Positions 3,061-22,314 of a stretch of 25,261 nucleotides of DNA are shown piece after piece (the first letter of the stretch is position 1; each line of letters opens with the position of its first letter). The notes beneath the pieces were generated by a model. It did no database searches. It was given only the letters and a program-made list of their open reading frames with translations, and was not told where the DNA came from. The translations under genes were made by a program, and so were the position numbers. The DNA is from a virus, in the IMG/VR virus record IMGVR_UViG_3300014911_000028, positions 1 through 25,261 of that record, one strand, 5' to 3'.

Positions 3061-3504
3061 ATGGATCACCTATTAGGGATTTTCAATGGCAATAGGGTTT
3101 ATGTTTCAGATGATGATCTATATCCTTTTTGGATCACTGATACACCCAAAAAGAAAAGGAGAAAAAAGAGGAAAGTAAGGAGAGCTGAAAAGAAGGAAAT
3201 CATACCTAAGATTGAAGATATTGTAAAAGAAAGTAGTGATAGAAAAAAGAAAAGATCCCTATATAAAGCAAGGAGATATAGAAAAGAGAATCCTATATGT
3301 GAGATATGCAGAATTAGGAAAGCGGAGCATACACATCACCTTATCCCTTTATCTGAAGGCAGTAAAGATTCTTATGAAAATTTTATATCAGTATGTATTG
3401 AATGTCATTCAAGATTGCACTATAGGAGATATAGGAAGTTTATTTTATCTTCAGGAAGTATAAAGATAGATAGAGGATTTTTGAAGGGAAGGGATGAGGA
3501 TTGA
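3061..3504 (+). CDS. HNH endonuclease, 147 aa
   Basis: The C-terminal half carries a zinc-bound HNH core: Cys80 and Cys83 (CEIC), the catalytic-type HTHH at 90-93, Asn107 (ENF), Cys112 and Cys115 (CIEC) and His120. The N-terminal half has a very basic stretch (about 30-45, KKKRRKKRKVRR) likely to bind DNA. It is the only rightward gene in the 0-4.7 kb region and its 3' end overlaps the leftward gene 3420-3626 by 85 nt, both signs of a mobile nuclease gene inserted into an older operon. There is no clear SD, so the exact start is uncertain. It could be free-standing homing HNH or a packaging-associated HNH; location favours the former. Confidence 0.85.
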   Translation: MDHLLGIFNGNRVYVSDDDLYPFWITDTPKKKRRKKRKVRRAEKKEIIPKIEDIVKESSDRKKKRSLYKARRYRKENPICEICRIRKAEHTHHLIPLSEGSKDSYENFISVCIECHSRLHYRRYRKFILSSGSIKIDRGFLKGRDED

Positions 3505-3640: not shown

Positions 3641-3796
3641 TTATTTTAGATAATTTACCTTAAACTTCTTTTCAAAATCATTCGCTGTCTTTTCATATTC
3701 CTCAGCTCTTTTGTCTATCTCATTCAGCTTTACCTTTCCTTCAAAAAAGTCCAACATTGCCCATCTTTTGCTATGTTTGTATTGTTTTCTTTTCAT
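3641..3796 (-). CDS. Small charged helical protein, 51 aa
   Basis: Frame from an ATG at 3796 to a TAA at 3641. AAAAGGAGGTGTTAGGT precedes the ATG and a strong promoter lies 32-59 nt upstream. The sequence is Lys/Glu-rich and helical (KLNEIDKRAEEYEKTANDF). Its stop is 15 nt before the next start at 3626, so the two form an operon. As first gene of the leftward block it could be regulatory, but no DNA-binding motif is visible. Confidence 0.65.
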   Translation of the reverse strand: MKRKQYKHSKRWAMLDFFEGKVKLNEIDKRAEEYEKTANDFEKKFKVNYLK

Positions 3797-3827: not shown

Positions 3828-3855
3828 ATCATACCATATCCCAGAATTTTGTCAA
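3828..3855 (-). promoter_or_regulatory. Sigma70-type promoter, leftward
   Basis: Minus strand: TTGACA (3855-3850), a 16-nt spacer, TATGAT (3833-3828). A TG dinucleotide lies close before the -10. It drives genes 3796 and 3626 leftward. Spacer and flanks resemble the promoter at 2878-2905. Confidence 0.8.
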
Positions 3856-3910
3856 GCATTTTTTTATCATTTTCTCAAAAAATTTTTATTTTTCTTAGCA
3901 ATGATCTCCT

Positions 3911-4132
3911 GCAAAAACCATGCCAACCTAAATCCTTAACCATTTCCAGCACTTAGCTCTGATTTTCCTTTGGCATGATTCTTGCTTATTCTTGTAAGTT
4001 GGTGAAAAGACAAGGGATTTGGGAATTGGCATGATTCTTGCCTTGCTGGATGCAAGAAGTATGCCAGAAGGGGTAGGATGGATGGCGGGATGTTGGCATA
4101 GATCTTGCATAGCCGTATGCAAAAAGCGTGCC
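3911..4132. promoter_or_regulatory. Six-copy TGGCAN8TTGC motif cluster (sigma54-like)
   Basis: Six sites share a GG-N10-GC core with TTGC at the end. Plus strand: 3971-3985 TGGCATGATTCTTGC, 4027-4041 the same 15-mer, 4094-4108 TGGCATAGATCTTGC. Minus strand: 3925-3911 TGGCATGGTTTTTGC, 4066-4052 TGGCATACTTCTTGC, 4133-4119 CGGCACGCTTTTTGC. The sigma54 consensus is TGGCAC-N5-TTGC with an exact GG-N10-GC. The second and third plus/minus pairs face each other across exactly 10 nt, forming inverted repeats. They may be sigma54-type promoters or paired operator/replication sites; the convergent geometry makes the second option at least as likely. Confidence 0.6.
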
Positions 4133-4144
4133 GAGTTGACCCGC

Positions 4145-4183: not shown

Positions 4184-4207
4184 CTCCCTATATTTTTCAT
4201 CCCTATT

Positions 4208-4540
4208 TTTCAGGTTCAAATATTTGGGTATAGGTTGGGGTATTTCTATTTCATACTTATCTTACTCTTCAGGTATCAAATATTCTAGTATTGGGGATCA
4301 GGGTATCAAATTTTTGATATTAGCTTAGAATATCCTTATTCTTATCTCTATTTTCAGGTATCAAATACTTTGGTATTGGATTAAGATATTTTTATTCCTA
4401 TTTCTATTTCTGGGGATAATAAATTTTGGTATGGGTTAGGGTGTCTCTATCTCTACCTCTATCTCTATCTCTATCTCTATCTCTATCTCTATTCTTATTA
4501 CTATCTCCTATTCTTCAGGTATCAAATATTCTGATATTGG
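4208..4540. repeat. Degenerate iteron-like direct repeats
   Basis: Units beginning CAGGTATCAAATATT or close variants start near 4210, 4271, 4301, 4354, 4409 and 4517, each followed by TGGTATTGG/TAGTATTGG-like sequence and then a TATTTCTATTT-like pyrimidine stretch, mostly 55-60 nt apart. Several units contain an imperfect inverted repeat (TATCA...TGATA). Unit spacing and AT content suit replication iterons or an operator array in the divergent control region. Repeat identity is too low and there are no unique spacers, so this is not a CRISPR array. Confidence 0.5.
4445..4492. repeat. Hexamer microsatellite (CTCTAT)8
   Basis: Eight uninterrupted units of CTCTAT, one with CTCTAC, lie within the iteron-like region. 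Such a tract is prone to slippage and could alter promoter or origin spacing. It is polypyrimidine on the plus strand and non-coding. Confidence 0.9.
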
Positions 4541-4657
4541 CTGAGTTAGTGAGTATTAATTGAATTAAATATTTTTAGGAGACAAATAATCTCAACTGTT
4601 TTTTACTCTCTACCCCTAGATAGACCTATCCTATCTGTCTCATCTTCAGATTACTGC

Positions 4658-4685
4658 TTGACTTTTTCTATCAGATGATTATATT
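4658..4685 (+). promoter_or_regulatory. Sigma70-type promoter for the paralogue array
   Basis: TTGACT (4658-4663), a 16-nt spacer, TATATT (4680-4685). It shares TTGACTTTTT and ATGATTA before the -10 with the promoter at 5140-5167. It lies 23 nt upstream of the first array gene. Confidence 0.7.
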
Positions 4686-4708: not shown

Positions 4709-5038
4709 ATGCTATTCAGAGATTATATAGAGCAGGGAATATTTAGATTGATTATTAAACTGTGTCCAAAACTAACTACGGTTAGGATGATGGGATATGA
4801 TGGAATAAGGATTGCAATTCGCAGGAATAAGTGTTATAGTGGGGTAGATATATTGGGGATAGATTTTAAGGGAAGAGTGGTGAACTGGTGGATAAGATTT
4901 GTCAGGCTTAGTTATGAACTTGATGAGATAAAGAATGCTCTATATATGGCAGTTGAGAAAGTAATGAATGGAGACTATACTGAATATGAGTACAGGATTG
5001 ATGGTAGTGGGTGGGTGGAAGTGGAAGTATGGATATGA
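4709..5038 (+). CDS. Array paralogue 1 (MMGYD family), 109 aa
   Basis: First of the tandem paralogues. Layout: an N-terminal helix (about 8-22), the family core RMMGYD at 26-31 leading into a strand (GIRIAI), a FKGR motif at 53-56, a second helix (LDEIKNALYMAVEKV), the second family motif NGDY at 87-90 and a C-terminal strand (VEVEVWI). It belongs to the long-N-terminus subgroup with 5188, 6465, 7058 and 7381. No known domain recognised. The stop overlaps the ATG of a truncated relic (ATGA), the coupling used throughout the array. Confidence 0.8.
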   Translation: MLFRDYIEQGIFRLIIKLCPKLTTVRMMGYDGIRIAIRRNKCYSGVDILGIDFKGRVVNWWIRFVRLSYELDEIKNALYMAVEKVMNGDYTEYEYRIDGSGWVEVEVWI

Positions 5039-5103
5039 TCAGGGTGTTGGCAAGTGTAGGTAAGATCTATGATTATAGCTTTGAATTAGGCCAATATATT
5101 TAG
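5035..5103 (+). pseudogene. Truncated array paralogue relic, 22 codons
   Basis: Begins by ATGA overlap with paralogue 1 and reads MIRVLASVGKIYDYSFELGQ before a TAG. The first ~33 nt are nearly identical to the start of the intact gene at 5501 (shared TTGGCAAGTGTAGGTAAGAT), then similarity stops at the core motif. This is a broken copy and direct evidence of birth-and-death turnover in the array. Confidence 0.7.
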
Positions 5104-5139
5104 CTTTAGAGTGGTTATGAATTAATGATAAAGGTAGTC

Positions 5140-5167
5140 TTGACTTTTTTCAGTAAATGATTACAAT
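5140..5167 (+). promoter_or_regulatory. Sigma70-type promoter inside the array
   Basis: TTGACT (5140-5145), a 16-nt spacer, TACAAT (5162-5167). It closely resembles the promoter at 4658-4685 (shared TTGACTTTTT and ATGATTA), so it was probably duplicated together with an array gene. It drives 5188 and the genes behind it. Confidence 0.7.
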
Positions 5168-5187
5168 AGATATAAGGGAAATAAGGT

Positions 5188-5508
5188 ATGAATATAAGAG
5201 ATTGGAGAGAGAGATGTATATTTGATAGATTTATAAGGGAATTTCCACAAGTATTGGTTTTTAAGATGGTTGGATATGATAAGGTGGAATTGGTGTTTCA
5301 TAAGAGATATGGTATCAAAGCCACTTCAAGAATTGTAATATTCTTCAAAGACAGATGTGCATCACTTAATGGAGCTGATTTCTTTGAAATGGAAACTATT
5401 AGGGAATATATTCCACTTGCAATAGATAAACTACATAAAGGTGAATATCAGGAATATGAAGTCTCAGATAATAATAAAGTTATAAGAATAGTTATTGGTG
5501 ATGATTAA
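5188..5508 (+). CDS. Array paralogue 2, 106 aa
   Basis: Long-N-terminus subgroup: IRDWRER at 3-9, REFPQVLVF before the core KMVGYD at 26-31, FKDR at 53-56, and the second motif KGEYQEYE at 84-91 before a final strand (VIRIVIG). At nucleotide and protein level it is closest to the genes at 6465 and 7058. It overlaps the next gene by 8 nt (ATGATTAA). Confidence 0.8.
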   Translation: MNIRDWRERCIFDRFIREFPQVLVFKMVGYDKVELVFHKRYGIKATSRIVIFFKDRCASLNGADFFEMETIREYIPLAIDKLHKGEYQEYEVSDNNKVIRIVIGDD

Positions 5509-5818
5509 AGTATTGGCAAGTGTAGGTAAGATGTTTGGATATGATGTCTTGTGTATGAGGAATTATTATTCTGGAATGTGTGTATTTGTGGATAATAGTG
5601 TTGAGTGCAGGTATTATGGGTATAAGGGTGTATATGTTGATGGTGTTAAGATGTGTTTGGGATGCTGGGTAGGAGAAATTGATACTGATGATTTGAACAG
5701 AGTTGCAGAGAAAGCATTGGTGGAGATAGGTAGGGGAAGTGTGGAGATAAGGGATAATGTATTATGGTCTCATTTCAGTAAGGGTGATGGGGCGGTGGGT
5801 GAGATATGGATAGTGTAA
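5501..5818 (+). CDS. Array paralogue 3, 105 aa
   Basis: The start at 5501 is preferred over an upstream in-frame TTG because it overlaps the previous stop and aligns with the relic at 5035. Short-N-terminus subgroup: the core KMFGYD is at 10-15, followed by a strand (VLCMR). The middle is Cys/Tyr-rich. The second motif is weak here (IGRGSVEIRDN). It ends in a strand (GEIWIV) like other members. Confidence 0.75.
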   Translation: MIKVLASVGKMFGYDVLCMRNYYSGMCVFVDNSVECRYYGYKGVYVDGVKMCLGCWVGEIDTDDLNRVAEKALVEIGRGSVEIRDNVLWSHFSKGDGAVGEIWIV

Positions 5819-5857
5819 AGATAATAGCTACTTTTCGGGTGTATATATAAGGTGAGA

Positions 5858-6217
5858 ATGTTACTGAAACCTGAACAAGTTAAGGTTATAAGAGCTATAG
5901 GTAGGATGATGGGATTCAATATGATTCAGGTAGTAGATAAAAGAGAGAATTTTGGTAAATTCTGTATTGTGGTTGGTAGGGATAGTATAGAGAAACGCAA
6001 TTTTATTGATGGAAATACTTATTGTTGGTTTATGTCAGATAAGGGTAAGATTGACAAAGTTAACCTTGTGTGTTACTTTTGTTGGAAACTGTGGATACTT
6101 ATAGATGTTGATATGGTGTTTAATTCAGTATTGGACAGATTATCTGATGGTGATTTTAGAGTTAGAGAGTATATAATGAAAGAATATGAAAGGAAAGTAT
6201 GTGTGGTAAGGATATGA
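5858..6217 (+). CDS. Array paralogue 4, 119 aa
   Basis: Core RMMGFN at 16-21 after a helix (VKVIRAIG), and the second motif SDGDFRVREY near 98-107. The start is uncertain: an in-frame GTG two codons upstream (5852) is possible, since the SD-like AAGGTGAG is very close to the ATG. Coupled to the next gene by an ATGA overlap. No outside family recognised. Confidence 0.7.
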   Translation: MLLKPEQVKVIRAIGRMMGFNMIQVVDKRENFGKFCIVVGRDSIEKRNFIDGNTYCWFMSDKGKIDKVNLVCYFCWKLWILIDVDMVFNSVLDRLSDGDFRVREYIMKEYERKVCVVRI

Positions 6218-6483
6218 AAGGGTTTCTCAGTATATGTAAGATGATGGGTTGGAAAAAGGTGTTTATAATGGGTAAGGGTTGTAGTTGGAGAGTGGTAATA
6301 TTTAAAGATAGGGTCATGATTACCTACCACAGTCCTACAACTGGTGTCTTGTTTGTAGATAAGATTCCAGATGATGTGATTAGAAAAGCCTATAGTAGCA
6401 TTTCAAGTGGCAGATATGATGAGAATGTGATAGTGGGTGTAGATGATCCTGAAAGGGTGGTAGTATGTTGGATATATGTATAA
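6214..6483 (+). CDS. Array paralogue 5, 89 aa
   Basis: The start at 6214 is chosen over an ATG at 6199 because it overlaps the preceding stop as ATGA, has AAGG upstream, and makes the N-terminus (MKGFLSICKMMGWK) align with the short subgroup. The core is at 9-14 and the second motif SSGRYDE near 65. The last strand is VVVCWIYV. Confidence 0.75.
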   Translation: MKGFLSICKMMGWKKVFIMGKGCSWRVVIFKDRVMITYHSPTTGVLFVDKIPDDVIRKAYSSISSGRYDENVIVGVDDPERVVVCWIYV

Positions 6484-6824
6484 GGGATTGGAAAGAGAGA
6501 TGTGTATTTAGGGAATTTATCAGAGAGTTTTCACAAGTGTTGGTATTTAGGATGATGGGATATGACATAGTGGAGTTGTCATGGAGAGACAAGTGTTTCA
6601 ATAAGGAGGAGTATTATGTTGATCCCAGAATTAAGTGGATGAATCGGATTGAAATCCATTTCAAGGGTAGATTTATTAGTTTTAGTAGTGGTGTTGGATA
6701 TACTGTCAGTATGAAAGATTGTGGAGAATATATCTTGATTGCATTGGACAAAGTAGAGAGTGGGGATTATCAGGAATATGAGACTTTGCAGGGTGATAGG
6801 GTGTTGACAATAAATATTGATTAG
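6465..6824 (+). CDS. Array paralogue 6, 119 aa
   Basis: Long subgroup: IRDWKER at 6-12, FREFIREFSQVLVF, core RMMGYD at 29-34, FKGR at 66-69, SGDYQEYE near 104-111, C-terminal strand (VLTINID). Compared with 5188 it carries a longer loop after the core strand. AAGGGTGG lies 5 nt before the ATG. It overlaps the previous gene by 19 nt. Confidence 0.8.
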   Translation: MLDICIRDWKERCVFREFIREFSQVLVFRMMGYDIVELSWRDKCFNKEEYYVDPRIKWMNRIEIHFKGRFISFSSGVGYTVSMKDCGEYILIALDKVESGDYQEYETLQGDRVLTINID

Positions 6825-6834
6825 GAGATTTGTT

Positions 6835-7068
6835 ATGAGATATGCTATCTATGGTCTGTTTAGTGATTGGTGGGGATACTTGATTGCTATAGGATTTTGT
6901 TTGTTATTGGTGGGACTTTCTGTAGTATGGGGAATTAGGAAATATGGGAGTTTTGAGAGATTTTTGGGAAGGTTTCGGGAAGAACTCAGGGGTAATTCAG
7001 GTGTGCTGTTGGATGATTGGGAGAGTTGGTTGGAGAGAGATGAGAGGAGATGGAGAGGTGATAATTAA
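6835..7068 (+). CDS. Small single-pass membrane protein, 77 aa
   Basis: The start at 6835 has AGGAG 7 nt upstream. One clear membrane helix at about residues 12-35 (SDWWGYLIAIGFCLLLVGLS, then VVWG), followed by a charged cytoplasmic-type tail rich in Arg/Glu. It lacks the MMGYD core, so it is not a paralogue, and is the only such gene in the array. Its end overlaps the GTG start of the next paralogue by 11 nt, so it is part of the operon. It may anchor or partner the array proteins; no direct evidence. Confidence 0.7.
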   Translation: MRYAIYGLFSDWWGYLIAIGFCLLLVGLSVVWGIRKYGSFERFLGRFREELRGNSGVLLDDWESWLERDERRWRGDN

Positions 7069-7381
7069 AGATTGGAAAAGAGAGATATTGTTTAGAGAAT
7101 TTATCAGGGAATTTCCCCAGCTATTGTATTTCAAGATGATGGGGTATGATGTGGTAGAAATTGTATTCTGGGATATTACTTTTGGTAGGATGAAAGTGGA
7201 TTTCAGGAATAGGTTATTGGAAACAGAAGTGAATCTGGATAAATTCAGACTTGAATCTGTCAGAGAAATTGTAAAGGCAGCAGTTGACAAGGCTCTTAAT
7301 GGAGATTATGATTCTTACAATGAGTTAGATGATAGAGATGTCATAAAGATGATAGTTTATGATAGAGAAGTATCTGTGTGA
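7058..7381 (+). CDS. Array paralogue 7, 107 aa
   Basis: A GTG start at 7058 is chosen because it gives (M)IIKDWKRE, aligning with IRDWRER/IRDWKER of the genes at 5188 and 6465, and has GAGGAG 9 nt upstream; the frame stays open further 5'. REFIREFPQLLYF precedes the core KMMGYD at 26-31; FRNR and NGDYDSYN follow in family order. The stop overlaps the next start. Confidence 0.75.
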   Translation: MIIKDWKREILFREFIREFPQLLYFKMMGYDVVEIVFWDITFGRMKVDFRNRLLETEVNLDKFRLESVREIVKAAVDKALNGDYDSYNELDDRDVIKMIVYDREVSV

Positions 7382-7701
7382 TGGAACAACTATTGTCGGT
7401 AGAAAGTTGGATAAGTAGAGTAGTGTTTAGAGAGCTCATAAATCTATGTCCTAATATATCTATAGTTAGGATGATGGGATATGATGTAGTAAGAATATTT
7501 ACAGATGCTTATACTCTCAGACATATAGGAATAGACTTCAGAGATAGGAGAGTGATATTAGATGCAGTTTTGGATACAGATGTATCAAAATTGAAAGAGA
7601 CTTTGATGGGAGCAGTAAATAAGATAATAGATGGGGATTGTTGGGTAGGTAATAATGTAGATGGAAAGATAGAAGTAGCTGTGAAAGTGGAGATGGAATA
7701 A
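7381..7701 (+). CDS. Array paralogue 8, 106 aa
   Basis: The ATG at 7381 shares its A with the preceding TGA. Long subgroup, closest to paralogue 1: LCPNISIV then the core RMMGYD at 30-35, FRDR in the position of FKGR, second motif DGDCW, final strand (EVAVKVEM). The next gene starts 1 nt after the stop. Confidence 0.8.
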   Translation: MEQLLSVESWISRVVFRELINLCPNISIVRMMGYDVVRIFTDAYTLRHIGIDFRDRRVILDAVLDTDVSKLKETLMGAVNKIIDGDCWVGNNVDGKIEVAVKVEME

Positions 7702-7702
7702 G

Positions 7703-8008
7703 ATGACAAAAACTGTTATGGCTCTTTGCAAAATGATGGGATTGGATAGGTTATGTATTAGGGAAAGGGGTGGTGATCCGCTAATTAGAGTTTGTTTAAT
7801 TGTTAAGGGTAAGGACTGTGATGGTAGAGAAAGTAGGGATGTATGTATGCGATGTTATTGTTTGTTAGATGGTGGTTTTGAAGGCAATAGGGATTTAAAT
7901 GAGATTGTGGCTCTTGGTTTTGATAGGGTGCTGAAAGGAGAGATAGATGATATTGTGCTTTGTTGGAATGGACTTTATAAAGAAAGGGTGGGGATAGTAT
8001 TAATATGA
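7703..8008 (+). CDS. Array paralogue 9, 101 aa
   Basis: Short subgroup: the helix TKTVMALC runs into the core KMMGLD at 10-15 and the strand LCIRE. The second motif is KGEID, followed by a strand ending VGIVLI. Several Cys lie in the middle (KDCDGRESRDVCMRCYC), as in paralogue 3. GGAG lies about 11 nt before the ATG; ATGA overlap with the next gene. Confidence 0.75.
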   Translation: MTKTVMALCKMMGLDRLCIRERGGDPLIRVCLIVKGKDCDGRESRDVCMRCYCLLDGGFEGNRDLNEIVALGFDRVLKGEIDDIVLCWNGLYKERVGIVLI

Positions 8009-8364
8009 ATAGATGTGGAAAGAGTAATATGATCTTTCTTTTAGAAGATCCAAAAGTGAGTAGTCTTGAATGTATTAAAATATTAATGGGAATTACAAGA
8101 ATATATGGTTACGATAAGATGGTTGTTCATTTGTATGCTCGTAAGTTCTTCATGGATTTTGATGGTCTGCATAAGAAAAGCGGTGTTCTGAAAGGTGGTG
8201 TATATTTACAAAGATTCAAGGATGGTAATTGGGATGGTCATATTCATGTTCCAGATGGATACAATATAGATTCATTCAATAATGTTATCCTTAAACTCTT
8301 GAATATGGGTGGTTTTAAATTTTATAAAGATTATATCTATGTAGAAGGGTGGTTGAATGAATAA
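8005..8364 (+). CDS. Array paralogue 10, 119 aa
   Basis: More diverged subgroup: the helix CIKILMGI precedes the core TRIYGYD (31-37) and the strand KMVVHLYA. The second motif reads MGGFKFYKD, then a strand (YIYVEGW). Linked to its neighbours by ATGA overlap upstream and an 8-nt overlap downstream. Confidence 0.75.
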   Translation: MNRCGKSNMIFLLEDPKVSSLECIKILMGITRIYGYDKMVVHLYARKFFMDFDGLHKKSGVLKGGVYLQRFKDGNWDGHIHVPDGYNIDSFNNVILKLLNMGGFKFYKDYIYVEGWLNE

Positions 8365-8671
8365 TTGGCTTGAAAGAGTAGATGTAAAAGATTTATTTGG
8401 AAGACACAAGTCTGTAAGAATTATCATGGCTTATGCTGTCATGTGTGGTATTGATTGTGTTCATATTTATGTAGCTTCTTCAGGCGATGAAATTTACATA
8501 TTTAGAGGGATTAGTAGCAAAAAGTGGATTGCGAATGTTAGAAGGGGAGATGGTGGATATGATAGAATTGATAGATTGATTTATTCTCATTTCATAAATG
8601 GTAATTTTAAGATAGTTGAAAACAATAGTGGTTGGTATGGTAGGACTATTGAAATGGTAATAAGAGAGTAG
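8357..8671 (+). CDS. Array paralogue 11, 104 aa
   Basis: Diverged member: SVRIIMAYAV then core MCGID with strand CVHIYVA, and the second motif NGNFKIVEN followed by a strand with conserved hydrophobic spacing. The Lys/Arg before the core is missing (Val), but helix-turn-strand order and gene size match the array. Confidence 0.7.
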   Translation: MNNWLERVDVKDLFGRHKSVRIIMAYAVMCGIDCVHIYVASSGDEIYIFRGISSKKWIANVRRGDGGYDRIDRLIYSHFINGNFKIVENNSGWYGRTIEMVIRE

Positions 8672-8685
8672 AGTAGAGTTTCTAG

Positions 8686-9024
8686 ATGGCAGTAGTAATC
8701 CTGAATGGCATATACAATATTAGGAAGGTGTGCAAAAAGATAGATTTATTGTTCTCCTATACAAGAATACTTGGATGTAAGAAATGTGTATTGTATGTGG
8801 ACTGTGAGATGCAGGGAGATTCACTTATTATGAAATTACATAAACAGAGTGATGGAATATGGTCTGGGGTTGTAGTCTGTAGTAGTGGGATGGAGTATAA
8901 ACTTGAGGATGTTATAATGAGAGTTATAAGAGAGGGGAAATGGGAAATTGGTAAGGATGATGAAGGTGAGAAATTTGTGTATATGAGATATAAGATGGAG
9001 AGTCTGGGGTTGACAAGTGAATAA
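8686..9024 (+). CDS. Array paralogue 12, 112 aa
   Basis: LLFSYT then core RILGCK and strand CVLYVDC; second motif EGKWEIGKD and a strand (FVYMRYKM). It begins 14 nt after the previous stop and has only a weak SD. Diverged subgroup with 8357 and 9385. Confidence 0.7.
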   Translation: MAVVILNGIYNIRKVCKKIDLLFSYTRILGCKKCVLYVDCEMQGDSLIMKLHKQSDGIWSGVVVCSSGMEYKLEDVIMRVIREGKWEIGKDDEGEKFVYMRYKMESLGLTSE

Positions 9025-9708: not shown

Positions 9709-9985
9709 AATGTTATGCTGTTATGTCAACCACCCCACCCTAATAAAGGGTAGAGCTTATAGCTCTGAGGTTGACTAGGGGGTATGGAGATGGTAATTCC
9801 ATACAGCCGTTATTCTGGTCATGGCACTCTGGGGTGTTTCGCAAGCTCCAGACACTGTCGTTGGTGGTTAAACAGTCCTGTCGGGGTAGGGGCAGTGCTA
9901 CCAACACAAAAAGCCAGAATAACTTCCCCGATGCAGACTCTAACCTGCCTTCAGGCAGAGGTAAACTCCTTTATGTTAGGAGGAT
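9709..9985 (+). ncRNA. Predicted IscB omega-RNA 1 with guide
   Basis: The region between the array and IscB1 folds as expected of an omega-RNA. Stem GTCAACC (9725-9731) / GGTTGAC (9769-9775) encloses two small hairpins. A long-range stem GTTATTCTGG (9809-9818) / CCAGAATAAC (9914-9923) encloses further helices, including GTTGGT (9860-9865) / ACCAAC (9900-9905). A pseudoknot TCGGGG (9881-9886) / CCCCGA (9926-9931) and a 3' hairpin CTGCC/GGCAG (9945-9958) follow. In IscB systems the guide is the ~16 nt 5' of the scaffold, here about 9709-9724 (AATGTTATGCTGTTAT). Exact ends are inferred. Confidence 0.8.
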
Positions 9986-9991
9986 TTATGT

Positions 9992-11245
9992 ATGGTTGTT
10001 TATGTGTTAAATAAACAAGGTAAACCTTTGATGCCTTGTCATCCTGCAAAGGCAAGGATATTGCTTAAGCAGGGTAAGGCAAAGGTAGTGCAGAGAACAC
10101 CTTTTACAATACAACTTCTTTATGGGAGCTCAGGTTACAAACAACCTATTGTTCTTGGGGTAGATAGTGGATATTCTCATATTGGGCTTTCTGCTATTAC
10201 TCAAAAGAAGGAAGTATATAGTGCAGAAGTTCAACTTAGAACAGATATTGTGAAATTGTTATCTGAACGCAGAGAATATAGGAGAGCAAGACGGCATCGT
10301 AAGACTCGGTATCGCAAACCAAGATTTTTGAATCGTAGAAGACCTGAAGGATGGTTATCTCCCTCTATACAGCATAAATTAGATAGTCATATTAAAGCTG
10401 TTAATCTGGTGAAGAAGATTCTTCCTATAACTAAGATCAATGTTGAAGTGGCAAATTTTGACATTCAAAAGATTAAGAATCCTAATATGTCAAGAAAAGA
10501 GTATCAGAATGGAGAGCAAAAAGGTTTCTGGAATGTAAGGGAGTATGTGTTGTGTAGAGACAATCATACTTGTCAAATTTGTAAAGGTAAATCGGGAGAT
10601 AATGTATTAGAGGTTCATCATATTGTTTCAAGACAAGTTGGTGGGGATAGACCAGATAATTTAATTACACTTTGCAGATCTTGTCATCAGAGATTACATA
10701 AGGGAGAATTAAAAGTGAAGTTGAAGGTGAATAAAGGGTTTAAAGCTGAGACCTTTATGTCAACTATCAGATGGAAATTGGTGAACAAGCTAAGAGAGTT
10801 AGGAAATGTAGTATCTGTAACTTATGGTTATCTTACTAAGTTGAGACGAGTAGAGTTGGGATTAACAAAGAGTCATATCAATGACGCATTTGTAATTGCT
10901 GGTGGTAGTAATCAAATTAGGAGTTCGGTTTATTATTTTATTAAACAAGTCAGGAAATGTAATCGTAAGTTATTTAAAGGAATTAGAAGTCATATCCGTA
11001 ATATTGCTGAGAGATTTGTGAAAGGCTTTCAGAGATTTGATAAAGTCAGATATAGGGGTATTGAATGTTTTATTTTTGGTAGGAGGAAGACAGGCTACTT
11101 CAGTCTGAAAAAATTGGATGGGACTGTTATTAGTGATTCAGCAAATTATAAAGAACTTAAATTACTTGAGAGCTTCAGAACATTTTTAATGGAGATGCGT
11201 CTTCTCCCTAACATGAATGTCAGGGTCTCTGACTTAAGGAGATAG
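9992..11245 (+). CDS. iscB: IscB RNA-guided nuclease 1, 417 aa
   Basis: Full-length IscB, ancestor-type relative of Cas9. PLMP motif at 12-15; RuvC-I GVDSG with Asp58; Arg-rich bridge helix about 92-118; RuvC-II NVEVANFD with Glu152; inserted HNH with Cys194/Cys197, HH 209-210, Asn223, Cys228/Cys231; RuvC-III SHINDA with Asp298; C-terminal domain about 340-417. All catalytic positions are present, so it should be active with the adjacent omega-RNA. AGGAGG lies 8 nt before the ATG at 9992. No TnpA transposase is nearby, so it probably moves by homing or by recombination. Its 3' end (AAGGAGATAGGAG) is a ready SD for whatever follows. Confidence 0.93.
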   Translation: MVVYVLNKQGKPLMPCHPAKARILLKQGKAKVVQRTPFTIQLLYGSSGYKQPIVLGVDSGYSHIGLSAITQKKEVYSAEVQLRTDIVKLLSERREYRRARRHRKTRYRKPRFLNRRRPEGWLSPSIQHKLDSHIKAVNLVKKILPITKINVEVANFDIQKIKNPNMSRKEYQNGEQKGFWNVREYVLCRDNHTCQICKGKSGDNVLEVHHIVSRQVGGDRPDNLITLCRSCHQRLHKGELKVKLKVNKGFKAETFMSTIRWKLVNKLRELGNVVSVTYGYLTKLRRVELGLTKSHINDAFVIAGGSNQIRSSVYYFIKQVRKCNRKLFKGIRSHIRNIAERFVKGFQRFDKVRYRGIECFIFGRRKTGYFSLKKLDGTVISDSANYKELKLLESFRTFLMEMRLLPNMNVRVSDLRR

Positions 11246-15252: not shown

Positions 15253-15744
15253 ATGCCTGCTGGAAATGTCAATTTTGTAGAGAGACTTAACAGACTTAAT
15301 GAGATAAAGAGATTATTAGATCAGGGTAAGACCAACCATGAGATAGCAAAAGAAACTGGTCTGCCTATTGAGACAGTCAGGAGAAACATAAAGTATCTTG
15401 ATGACTTGATGAGCTCTGATCTTACTCCTGAGCAGATCGCTGAGAAAAGATCGGAGCTGTATCTTGAATTGATTGAAGCAAGCAACGAAGCGAGGCAGTT
15501 GTTTGATAAATATAAGACTCAGGGAAAATCAGTTGATGCAAAGCGATTCTTTGACGCATGGCTTGAAACAATACAATTGAGAGCAAAACTATATGGTCTT
15601 GATAATGTGAAAGTGGATGCATTTACTCAGGTAAACACTCAGATAAACATATCAGAGCCTGAGAGAATAGATCCAGAAATAGGTAAAAAGATAGCAGATG
15701 CCATCATATTGGAGCATGAAAAACGAGTAAGGGAGAATGTCTAG
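15253..15744 (+). CDS. terS: Terminase small subunit, 163 aa
   Basis: DNA-recognition subunit of the packaging motor. N-terminal helix-turn-helix at about 10-45 (LDQGKTNHEIAKETGLPIET), then helical oligomerisation region (ELYLELIEASNEARQLFDKY). Size and position directly before the large terminase, with an 8-nt overlap, fit. GGAG lies 11 nt before the ATG. Identified from layout and HTH rather than from strong similarity. Confidence 0.8.
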   Translation: MPAGNVNFVERLNRLNEIKRLLDQGKTNHEIAKETGLPIETVRRNIKYLDDLMSSDLTPEQIAEKRSELYLELIEASNEARQLFDKYKTQGKSVDAKRFFDAWLETIQLRAKLYGLDNVKVDAFTQVNTQINISEPERIDPEIGKKIADAIILEHEKRVRENV

Positions 15745-17662
15745 ATATTACGAAAGAGAAGAGCCCAAATATAGTAGTGTGGATGAAGTAGAAAAGCATA
15801 GGAAAGAGCTTGCAAAAGAGTATGATGGTAAATTACCAGATTATTTACATGATTATTTTGATGACGAAAGAGAGAAAGTATTAAGAGAAGAGTTTTACAG
15901 AGAAGTTGAAAAGAATAGACAGAAATTCAGGGATCTTAGTCTTGATGAAAAGATAGAGTTTAAGAGACAGAGAGACGAAAAGTTCTGGTCAGAAAATAAA
16001 CTTGCACTTGTAAAGAAAAGAAAGAGACATTCCAATCCAGTTTATCCTGAACCACCAAAGGCAGTAGAGAGAGTGGAACAGGAGAGAGAGCTAACACCTG
16101 AGGAATTACTTGCCTTAAAGAAACTATGTGAGAATAATCTGTATCTATTCGCAGTCAGATATTTCCCACACTACCTTAGCAAACCATCAAGTAAACTCCA
16201 CAGATTCCTATATAATACCCTTACAAGAGACATAAACAGAGCACACAAGAAAAAAACACTAGGACCACTTAAGCTGGCTATTGCAGCTCCAAGAGACAGT
16301 GCCAAGACTACCATTGTAGGTTGTATCCTCCCAGTATGGTGTGTCTGTTATAAGAAAAAGCATTACATAGGAATAATATCAAGTTCAAGTTCAACTGCTG
16401 AAGAAAGGCTCTATGATATAAAGACTGAGTTGGAGCATAATGAAAAACTTAAGAGAGATTTTCCTGAAGCATGTGGAAAAGGGCCTATATGGAGAAATAA
16501 TGAAATAATAACAAGGAACAATGTAAAGATTGGAGCCTATGGAACTGGTAGTCAGATAAGGGGTAGGAAATTTGGAACACATAGGTTCGGTCTTGTTGTG
16601 AATGATGATATCGAAGAAGTAGAAATGATCAGATCAGAAGCTTTGAGACAGTCTATTTACAAATGGTTTAATCAGGATCTCATCCATGCTGGTTCAGATG
16701 ACTGTGATTACATAATGATAGGAACTATTCTTGGTAGAGAAGCCCTACTATACAAGTTGATTGAAACTGATGAGTATCCAGATTGGCATGGGATAAAATT
16801 TAAAGCACTTGAAAAATTCCCCAATAATATGGAACTGTGGGATGAGTGGTATAAGATCCTGACAGATAGGTTCAATCCCAATGCAAAGGATGATGCTTGG
16901 CAGTTTTATCAGGAGCACAGAGCTGAGATGGATGAAGGGGCTGAGTTGCTCTGGCCTGAAGGAGATCCATTGTATAACTTGATGATTGAATACTATTCAA
17001 GACCTACAAGTTTTTATCATGAAAAACAGAATGAAGCACTTGATCCAAGTCAGACTCTGGTGAGTATGGACAATATCCACTTTGAGAATTTTTCAACTAA
17101 TCCAGAGATAAAGAAAATACTTAAGAATTGTGTTTACTATGGAGCACTTGATCCATCTCTAGGAAAGAAAAGCACATCTGATTACTCGTGTATTGTTACT
17201 CTGGCAAGAGATATAAAGAGTGGATACATCTATGTTGTAGATATTGACATGAAGAGGAGATCTGTAGATGATCAGATCTATGCAATCCTTGCTCACCATG
17301 AGAAATACAGATATAGAGCCTTTGCAATTGAGACAAATGCCTTTCAGGTAGTGGTTGCAGATATTCTCAGAAAGAAATCAAGGGAAACTGGCATATATGT
17401 GCCAGTAAAAGAAGTAAAGGCGGTAACTGATAAGAGAATGAGATTTGAAAGTGTTGTTCCATTTATATATGATGGGACAATTGTATTTGATAAGCATAAG
17501 ATGAATACAAAGAAAATGTATAATGAGGCAGTGTATCAGATGATCTATTTTACTGGTGTTGGTGATGAGAAGGATGACTTTGTAGATGCTCTTGGTTATG
17601 CTTTCCAAATAGCAAAAGGTAGTGGGTTTAAACTACTTACCAGACCAGCTAAGAGGAATTAG
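15737..17662 (+). CDS. terL: Terminase large subunit, 641 aa
   Basis: Packaging ATPase and headful/cos nuclease. Walker A-like APRDSAKTT at 184-192, arginine-rich GSQIRGRKFGTHR at 271-283, Walker B LVVNDDIEE at 286-294, coupling motif IMIGT at 326-330. C-terminal RNase H-like nuclease acidic residues at Asp472 (GALDPS), Glu532 (AIETNA) and Asp617 (DDFVDAL). The ~120-residue charged N-terminal extension before the ATPase is longer than in many TerL. Acts at the portal vertex during assembly. The frame is intact. Confidence 0.95.
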   Translation: MSRYYEREEPKYSSVDEVEKHRKELAKEYDGKLPDYLHDYFDDEREKVLREEFYREVEKNRQKFRDLSLDEKIEFKRQRDEKFWSENKLALVKKRKRHSNPVYPEPPKAVERVEQERELTPEELLALKKLCENNLYLFAVRYFPHYLSKPSSKLHRFLYNTLTRDINRAHKKKTLGPLKLAIAAPRDSAKTTIVGCILPVWCVCYKKKHYIGIISSSSSTAEERLYDIKTELEHNEKLKRDFPEACGKGPIWRNNEIITRNNVKIGAYGTGSQIRGRKFGTHRFGLVVNDDIEEVEMIRSEALRQSIYKWFNQDLIHAGSDDCDYIMIGTILGREALLYKLIETDEYPDWHGIKFKALEKFPNNMELWDEWYKILTDRFNPNAKDDAWQFYQEHRAEMDEGAELLWPEGDPLYNLMIEYYSRPTSFYHEKQNEALDPSQTLVSMDNIHFENFSTNPEIKKILKNCVYYGALDPSLGKKSTSDYSCIVTLARDIKSGYIYVVDIDMKRRSVDDQIYAILAHHEKYRYRAFAIETNAFQVVVADILRKKSRETGIYVPVKEVKAVTDKRMRFESVVPFIYDGTIVFDKHKMNTKKMYNEAVYQMIYFTGVGDEKDDFVDALGYAFQIAKGSGFKLLTRPAKRN

Positions 17663-20793: not shown

Positions 20794-21030
20794 ATGGCCG
20801 AGTTGAGGTGTTATAGGTTCCCACTAATAAAGCCTATAACCAGCCTTAGCCTGATGGCTACGACAAGAGAAGTTATCACATCTTGGGATGCATTCGCCAG
20901 TTCCAAGCTCTGTGGTTATGGTTCTATTGCTCTCATTGTGGGAGTGAGAGTGTAGGGTCATAACATGTAAGCTCTCTTGTCATTGGCGAGGCGAACTTTA
21001 CCCCTATTTGGGAGGTTCTCTTTAAGGAGA
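20794..21030 (+). ncRNA. Predicted IscB omega-RNA 2 with guide
   Basis: First stem GTTATAGG (20810-20817) / CCTATAAC (20833-20840); long-range stem GACAAGAGA (20862-20870) / TCTCTTGTC (20973-20981); inside it GTTATG (20915-20920) / CATAAC (20959-20964) and CTCTCA/TGAGAG (20930-20950); possible pseudoknot TTCGCC (20893-20898) / GGCGAA (20990-20995). Shape and order match omega-RNA 1, and a TTCGC-loop hairpin with TCCA on its 3' side is conserved. The predicted guide, about 20794-20809, is ATGGCCGAGTTGAGGT. Ends are inferred. Confidence 0.78.
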
Positions 21031-21039
21031 GTTATAATT

Positions 21040-22314
21040 ATGAGAGTATTTGTTTTAGACAAGGACAAGAGACCATTAGCTTCTTGTCATCCTGCCAGAG
21101 CAAGAATACTTTTAAAGGAAGGTAAGGCATCTGTTTATAAGATGTTTCCGTTTACTATTATACTTAAAGAATCCTATCCTGATTTTAAACCCAGAGTTCA
21201 CTGTTTGAAATTTGATCCTGGTGTTAGTGAAAGTGGAATGGTTGTTGTTGAGAAAAGCAGAGATAAGTATAGTTCTGTTGGTAGAGTTGTATTTGCTTCA
21301 GTGATAAAACATAAGTTTTATCTTGTGAGAAGGAGAATGATAAGTAGAGCTTTACGGAGAAGATTCAGAAGGAAGAGATTAAGGAGAAGAAAAGCAAGAT
21401 TTTATAGGGCAGTTTCTAGTAATTGGATTAGCCCATCTCTTTCTTCTGTATTGAGTAACTATGTAACATGGATTAATAGGATAGTAGCATTATCTCCGAT
21501 CAGTGAGATATTTGTTGAAGTTAGTAAGTTTGATTCTCACAAGATGAAAGATAAATCGGTGCATGGAAATCTATATAGGTTTGGAGAGTTGTATGGTGTT
21601 AAAGATATAAGGAGTTATATCTTTGACAAGTTTAAGCATCGATGTGTATATTGTGGATCAACTTCTAACCTTGAAATAGATCATATTATACCTAAGAGTA
21701 GGGGTGGGTCTGATAGGATTGATAATCTTGTTTTGGCATGTAGAAAATGTAATAATGAAAAAGGTAACAGAACAGCGTCTGAATTTGGATATGATAACAT
21801 ACAGCAATTAGTTGGTAAGTCTCTAAAAGCACCAAGTGTTCTAAATAGACTCAATATTAAATTGATTGAATTTTTAGAGTTCTTAGGGAAACCATACTAT
21901 ATCAGTGATGGAATAACAACAAGTCATAATAGAAAGTTTCTGGGTTTGAAGAAGGAACATTGGATCGATGCTTTATGTGTAGGGGAAATCTATGATAAGA
22001 TAATTTATCCTTCGTATGGGTTGTATATAAAGGCTGAAGGGAGAGGTAATAGACAGATTGTTAGAAATGATAAGTATGGATTTCCCAGATTTCATCTTTC
22101 AAGAAATAGACATCACTTTGGCTTCAGAAGCGGAGATATGGTTAGGACTAACGATGGAATAATTGGAAAAGTTGTATGTAGAAGTAGAGGGCAGTTTGAT
22201 GTTAAGACAAAGAATGGAACAATATATAGGAAGTATACTGAATGTGAAGTCATATTTAAAAGAGATGGTTATTCTTATTCCCATTTTATGATTGCAAATA
22301 ATTTGGAGGTGTAG
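21040..22314 (+). CDS. iscB: IscB RNA-guided nuclease 2, 424 aa
   Basis: The start at 21040 (AAGGAG upstream) removes a 21-residue extension that is really omega-RNA. PLAS in the PLMP position (12-15); RuvC-I KFDPG with Asp59; Arg-rich bridge helix about 97-122; RuvC-II FVEVSKFD with Glu160; HNH Cys202/Cys205, DH 214-215, Asn229, Cys234/Cys237; RuvC-III HWIDAL with Asp310; C-terminal SH3-like domain (GDMVRTNDGIIGKVV). All catalytic residues kept. Clearly different from IscB1 in HNH style (DHIIPKSRGG against HHIVSRQVGG). It interrupts the head operon, and its 3' end GGAGGTG supplies the SD of the next gene. Confidence 0.93.
   Translation: MRVFVLDKDKRPLASCHPARARILLKEGKASVYKMFPFTIILKESYPDFKPRVHCLKFDPGVSESGMVVVEKSRDKYSSVGRVVFASVIKHKFYLVRRRMISRALRRRFRRKRLRRRKARFYRAVSSNWISPSLSSVLSNYVTWINRIVALSPISEIFVEVSKFDSHKMKDKSVHGNLYRFGELYGVKDIRSYIFDKFKHRCVYCGSTSNLEIDHIIPKSRGGSDRIDNLVLACRKCNNEKGNRTASEFGYDNIQQLVGKSLKAPSVLNRLNIKLIEFLEFLGKPYYISDGITTSHNRKFLGLKKEHWIDALCVGEIYDKIIYPSYGLYIKAEGRGNRQIVRNDKYGFPRFHLSRNRHHFGFRSGDMVRTNDGIIGKVVCRSRGQFDVKTKNGTIYRKYTECEVIFKRDGYSYSHFMIANNLEV

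Follow-up and report, generated by a model that had tools for sequence, protein, structure and literature searches.

Arrays of sigma54-type promoter sites between divergent gene blocks of phages: a candidate control region that depends on the host

The window analysed in this study, a stretch of viral DNA of 25,261 nucleotides, carries at positions 3911-4133 six sites that resemble the −24/−12 promoter elements of sigma54 RNA polymerase. Comparative sequence analysis suggests, with a probability of about 0.58, that this 223-bp array is a control region between divergent operons that uses host sigma54 and is gated by an activator. We infer the binding of the polymerase, its gating, and the direction and timing of transcription from the comparisons described below.

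Six sites in 223 base pairs

The exact pattern TGGCANNNNNNTTGC has five matches in the array, and a sixth site carries a single mismatch to it. An initial annotation had described these as six TGGCA-N6-TTGC sites (one off by a base), three per strand, and its coordinates are confirmed. All were identified by motif and matrix:

3911-3925, minus strand: sigma54-like −24/−12 site TGGCATGGTTTTTGC, with a predicted leftward RNA start near 3899
3971-3985, plus strand: sigma54-like site TGGCATGATTCTTGC, the best score in the window, with a predicted RNA start near 3997
4027-4041, plus strand: sigma54-like site TGGCATGATTCTTGC, plus half of facing pair 1
4052-4066, minus strand: sigma54-like site TGGCATACTTCTTGC, minus half of facing pair 1, across a 10-nt gap
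4094-4108, plus strand: sigma54-like site TGGCATAGATCTTGC, plus half of facing pair 2
4119-4133, minus strand: sigma54-like site CGGCACGCTTTTTGC, the one with the mismatch, minus half of facing pair 2, across a 10-nt gap

The exact GG-N10-GC spacing noted earlier is found in all six sites, and the gap within each of the two facing plus/minus pairs is indeed exactly 10 nt (4042-4051 and 4109-4118). The motif count that had been proposed for this phage, run over the whole 25,261-base record, returned the six array sites with no further exact match elsewhere and none for the reversed pattern.

The possibility that chance clustering of a short motif made the array carries practically no weight. 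With up to one mismatch allowed, the window has 11 matches compared to 2.76 ± 1.65 in 100 dinucleotide shuffles, none of which reached 11, and reversed-pattern controls gave 0 matches in 50 records. A scoring matrix derived from 29 published Salmonella sigma54 sites (PMC3844500) puts the six sites ahead of every other position in the window (21.5, 19.7, 19.5, 16.3, 16.2 and 15.3), and the seventh score is 10.7. Six Markov-simulated windows contained 0, 1, 0, 0, 0 and 0 matches of at least 15.3.

Genomic surroundings of the array

The window record includes genes for the large terminase, portal and major capsid protein. Genes to the left of the array run leftward, with an HNH ORF at 3061-3504 as the exception, and genes to the right run rightward from 4709 through the terminase and capsid genes. 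The features relevant to this arrangement are:

3641-3796, minus strand: 51-aa ORF with AGGAGGTGTTA just upstream, the first leftward gene candidate (from sequence and translation)
3828-3855, minus strand: sigma70-like promoter TTGACA-N16-TATGAT preceded by TG, 11 of 12 matches, pointing leftward out of the array
4216-4541, no strand assigned: four to five copies of TCAAATAYTYTRGTATTGG repeats, right of the array
4658-4685, plus strand: sigma70-like promoter TTGACT-N16-TATATT just before ORF 4709, 10 of 12 matches, pointing rightward
4709-5038, plus strand: first rightward ORF of more than 100 aa, by ORF comparison a paralogue of ORFs 5188, 6465, 6944 and 7378
15737-17662, plus strand: large terminase (phrog_38, E 4e-92), on the strand of the rightward block that starts right of the array

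Promoter-like sites are not in excess across this region (8 versus 6.1 in shuffles), and each is weak alone. The five paralogous ORFs (window 4709-7701) share 26-44% identity, and ORFs of similar size that neighbour them may be diverged copies. Pfam gave no match for ORFs 4709 and 5188, and PHROGs gave none for ORF 4709. Elsewhere in the window, two stretches (9725-11245 and 20810-22314) each comprise a HEARO (omega) RNA followed by a putative IscB-like ORF with HNH-type motifs.

GC skew changes from negative to strongly positive near position 4000, and within 5001-9000 G very strongly exceeds C (skew about 0.6) on the strand that codes for the paralogues. A TATCTC-type tract lies beside the array, together with the TCAAATAYTYTRGTATTGG repeats, within 4190-4541; the repeats are possibly sites of enhancer type, origin sites or sites for other proteins. 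The sign change in skew, the adjoining AT-rich repeats and the location of arrays upstream of terminase genes would fit a replication origin or packaging site in which the sigma54-like sites serve. However, the skew also tracks gene direction and such a function leaves the match to the sigma54 motif unexplained, which makes this proposal very improbable.

Agreement with the sigma54 motif

The match extends to positions that our search pattern does not fix. Across nine unconstrained positions, base frequencies in 370 phage sites correlate with the Salmonella matrix (r=0.80, permutation p=5e-5). After TGGCA, the phage sites have C56/T43 and then G67/A30 (Salmonella set C57/T38 and G64/A34), and after TTGC they have A46/T41 (A48/T44). 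The base just before TTGC differs, with C favoured in the phage sites and T in those of Salmonella. The 97 array sites that were not search seeds follow the consensus T-TGGCA-Y(99%)-G(86%)-n-T-T-C-TTGC-W(91%). This agreement at open positions renders recognition by an unrelated protein unlikely, though possible.

Phage sites share GG-N10-GC, YTGGCAYR-N4-TTGCW and the unconstrained-position frequencies with the −24/−12 promoters of sigma54 (RpoN) in Salmonella LT2 (PMC3844500). In the same text, the chromosomal intergenic sites of LT2 are mostly single and oriented to genes, whereas the phage sites are packed, two-stranded and helically phased. Silent or intragenic sigma54 binding in E. coli (PMC4591121) is similar in that binding occurs without matching transcription, and repression by overlap is mentioned there; those sites are scattered within genes, whereas the phage sites are arrayed in control regions.

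Recurrence in viral and bacterial DNA

The initial annotation considered a phage switch of this kind to be rare, but such arrays are common in IMG/VR. Convergent pairs with gaps of 0-30 yielded at least 120 matches, compared to 15 in all for a control reversed without complementing, and the divergent and tandem versions also yielded at least 120 matches each. Facing pairs with the 10-nt gap occur in 12 viral stretches and carry the sigma54 YR bases at both sites in six, although two of these six (L001 and L008) are one pair read from opposite strands. The gap is 3-8 in 102 of 130 locus-gap counts (118 convergent loci), and therefore the 10-nt gap of the window is a rarer form.

Convergent-scan loci, 10-nt-gap loci and the window together hold 77 non-identical arrays of at least three sites, and the GC content of array loci ranges from 0.30 to 0.68. 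Of 50 records, 49 contain the strict pattern YTGGCAYRNNNNTTGCW and none its reversed control; all records except the window's own had been picked for carrying pairs. Tandem scanning added 85 new loci, in which 80 of 83 non-identical arrays have all their sites on one strand; the array in the window is of the both-strand form. When kinship was judged by single linkage at 40% amino-acid identity, 284 loci fell into 77 clusters, one with 194. No relatives of the window's TerL were found in viral_contigs, and neither DNA nor protein searches brought up isolates close to the window or the array contigs, with distant ones at most. A sugar-enzyme gene at locus L066 was uninformative as a host clue.

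Facing pairs with gaps of 3-10 are absent from 337 genomes that share a class with an Amylibacter genome and from 321 that share one with a Marinospirillum genome. One of 345 genomes from the phylum of a Desulfobacteraceae genome has such a pair, a perfect hairpin and the single match in these 1003 sampled bacterial genomes; so does one of 16 other genomes, which had been preselected by a looser pattern. A GTDB search with the 10-nt gap found 27 loci, most of which look like chance or conserved genes, with YR at both sites in one (L146). The facing-pair array is a phage layout that is nearly absent from the sampled bacterial chromosomes.

We also considered that facing arms might form hairpins or terminators. 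This reading was rejected because in most pairs the inner six bases of the two arms do not complement each other; specifically, at least four of the six are shared in 6 of 127 facing pairs with gaps of 3-8.

Arrays in cultured phages

A blastn search with the array of locus L003 (E<=10) returned 344 phage records, comprising 301 Vibrio, 42 Pseudomonas and one Listeria record; single matches were weak, and Pseudomonas phage Kat and Vibrio phage D419 were inspected. In Kat, a facing pair (4-nt gap) and a third site lie in a stretch of about 630 bp that lacks annotated genes. The facing pair of D419 is separated by 3 nt and accompanied by further sites. Whole-record counts in six phages with sites range from 3 to 6, with 0 for the reversed control, and neither Roseobacter phage CRP-125 nor Vibrio phage CHOED has a site in its record. 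Both Pseudomonas and Vibrio, the hosts of the array-bearing isolates, have rpoN.

Alignment of five diverged Pseudomonas phages, Kat, PaP1, XD2, Roomu-2 and Bitten, places the facing pair at a constant position with a gap of 3-4 nt and variable inner bases, and the −12 element of one site is off by a base in each of the last three. The third site differs in strand, being minus in Kat and PaP1 and plus at the corresponding place in XD2, Roomu-2 and Bitten, which suggests that direction matters little.

Other features were observed at these loci. In Kat, about 70 nt that follow a strong −10 element, shortly ahead of the facing pair, are conserved (L351, 3919-4002), and three repeats ending in GCTAAC, spaced by about 20 bp and partly kept in the five phages, lie beyond the third site (L351, 4213-4272). 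These are possibly a small RNA and activator sites, respectively. In D419 (L352), TTTC replaces TTGC at −12 in sites beside full ones, and these are perhaps decaying or variant sites.

Placement and orientation

Array midpoints fall in divergent gaps in 29 of 77 arrays compared to 7.3 expected, and inside genes in 11 compared to 38.9, where the expectation comes from random positions in the same loci, genes are mechanically called ORFs, and 26 of the 77 arrays lie too close to a locus end for classing. TerL reads away from the array in all 135 usable loci and, once arrays sharing a 30-mer are removed, in 105 of 105 (TerL is present in 136 loci, one being left out for having fewer than two sites within 300 bp).

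Sigma70-like promoters (at least 10 of 12 matches) within 400 bp of 150 arrays point outward in 92 cases and inward in 19, compared to 94 and 79 at 400-1600 bp. Where flanks are divergent, the outermost sites of the arrays have no outward preference (leftmost 15 plus and 11 minus; rightmost 15 minus and 11 plus). Both counts used redundancy filters of 18-20 bases that also drop unrelated arrays sharing the consensus, and the window was dropped in one such filtering. Central divergent control regions with sigma70 promoters are known from phages. The arrays resemble these regions in lying between divergent gene blocks with outward sigma70-like promoters, but differ by the sigma54-type array between the promoters.

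One-strand arrays have a sigma70-like promoter within 300 bp upstream on the opposite strand in 27 cases and on the same strand in 2, versus 22 to 29 farther off. In loci with TerL, 27 point away from the terminase block and 5 toward it, and thus they would not drive that block. This is the pattern expected of a divergent control region in which sigma70 serves one side and sigma54 the other.

Both-strand arrays in tandem gene contexts have 61 sense and 72 antisense sites, a balance that is forced because the search seeds hold one site per strand. Isolated sites divide 20 to 15 relative to genes. The sites in the rightward half of contig G008 are mostly antisense; at its locus L013, single leftward sites occur just past the stop codons of consecutive rightward genes. 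At locus L066, CTGCCATTTTGGCAG palindromes that look like short hairpins follow directly on tandem sigma54 sites (2103-2117 and about 2809-2870), near the expected RNA start. The earlier suggestion that sigma54 is used in both directions holds in that sites are present on both strands. Each site is a candidate promoter; in this class, orientation has no gene preference, in a biased test, and outward sigma70-like promoters flank the arrays.

Helical phasing of neighbouring sites

Spacings between neighbouring sites are periodic, at 10.5 bp for divergent (n=60), 10.75 bp for tandem (n=105) and 11 bp for convergent (n=56) neighbours (p<=0.001 versus jitter). These values derive from nearest-neighbour spacings with one count per protein-similarity cluster and offset; counts per locus without clustering give a best period nearer 9.5 bp. 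The minimum spacing between sites is 17-18 bp. A fixed face of the DNA helix seems to matter to the array. This is compatible with a looped activator making contact as well as with bound proteins touching one another, and by itself does not tell the two apart.

That minimum spacing and the regular phasing would also suit a small cooperative protein other than sigma54, encoded by phage or host, that has a closely similar target and uses the array as an operator or paired site. In addition, two polymerases would not fit on facing sites at once, judging from typical footprint sizes. Against such a protein, the unconstrained positions have base frequencies near-identical to those of real sigma54 sites, and no protein family accounts for more than 2 of the 100 proteins that flank the arrays. 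A host DNA-binding protein is needed at the SrpA-controlled promoter of Pseudomonas phage K5, a relative of the phages compared here, but the SrpA site, NTATC..GATAN, is a different motif from the sigma54-type array sites (PMC5945682), and SrpA was rejected as the user of the array for this reason. We consider a protein of this type improbable. The initial annotation had left the choice between a sigma54 switch and a look-alike paired site undecided; sigma54 fits far better given the unconstrained bases, the divergent control region and the lack of a recurrent adjacent regulator.

A proposed role for host sigma54

Neither the sigma54 DNA-binding domain (PF04552) nor the sigma54 activator domain (PF00158) was detected in the 50 records, many of which are fragments, and a sigma54 or activator encoded by the phages was therefore rejected. 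A shared adjacent regulator was likewise rejected, since the 100 proteins flanking the arrays, as distinct from the rest of each genome, include no Pfam or PHROG family more than twice. With no recognizable sigma54 or activator of phage origin, the user of the array is probably host sigma54 polymerase with a host activator.

We propose that the 223-bp array in the window provides binding sites for host sigma54 polymerase between the leftward small genes and the rightward terminase and capsid block. The polymerase would rest on these sites as a silent closed complex, and transcription would start only with an active host activator, an enhancer-binding ATPase. In this way, the array could add a second, signal-gated layer to the outward-pointing sigma70-like promoters that flank it. 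Because opposite-strand sites overlap, one bound polymerase would exclude its facing neighbour, and this mutual exclusion might turn the region into a two-way switch.

Alternatively, the sites might act as a decoy that captures host sigma54 polymerase without producing useful RNA, such that replicating phage DNA soaks up a scarce factor and silences the sigma54 genes of the host. Facing pairs would then hold the captured enzyme in an unproductive state. Tight packing, the near absence of facing pairs from bacterial chromosomes and the lack of an activator domain in the 50 records agree with this possibility. Against a plain set of promoters are the balanced strands, the lack of outward preference, the strand change of the corresponding site among related isolates and the antisense sites of contig G008; these leave some probability to a decoy and less to a mimic protein. 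However, a sponge would have no need to border the terminase block on its upstream side (135 of 135 loci), to stand back-to-back with sigma70-like promoters or to be helically phased, and one-strand arrays exist. We regard a decoy as unlikely, and favour the activator-gated control region.

A broader proposal, to which we give slightly less than even odds, is that these phages form a class with helically phased host-sigma54 arrays at the junction of divergent gene blocks. Lacking their own sigma54 or activator, such phages would be wired to the stress or nutrient activators of the host, with the array serving as a switch or a trap.

Implications for phage biology

Sigma54 promoters are already known. 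An open-literature search found no description of packed, phased, two-strand sigma54 arrays in phages, which is not proof of their absence from print. The general view is that phages begin their programme with the housekeeping sigma factor or a polymerase of their own, and sigma54 fires only once a host activator senses a condition. Cultured Pseudomonas and Vibrio phages with these sites make the sigma54 reading directly testable. The recurrence of the arrays in many unrelated, mostly uncultured phages suggests wide use or capture of host sigma54. If widespread use is true, infection decisions would be tied to host physiology, and the arrays would offer a DNA signature for predicting the hosts and regulatory logic of uncultured phages.
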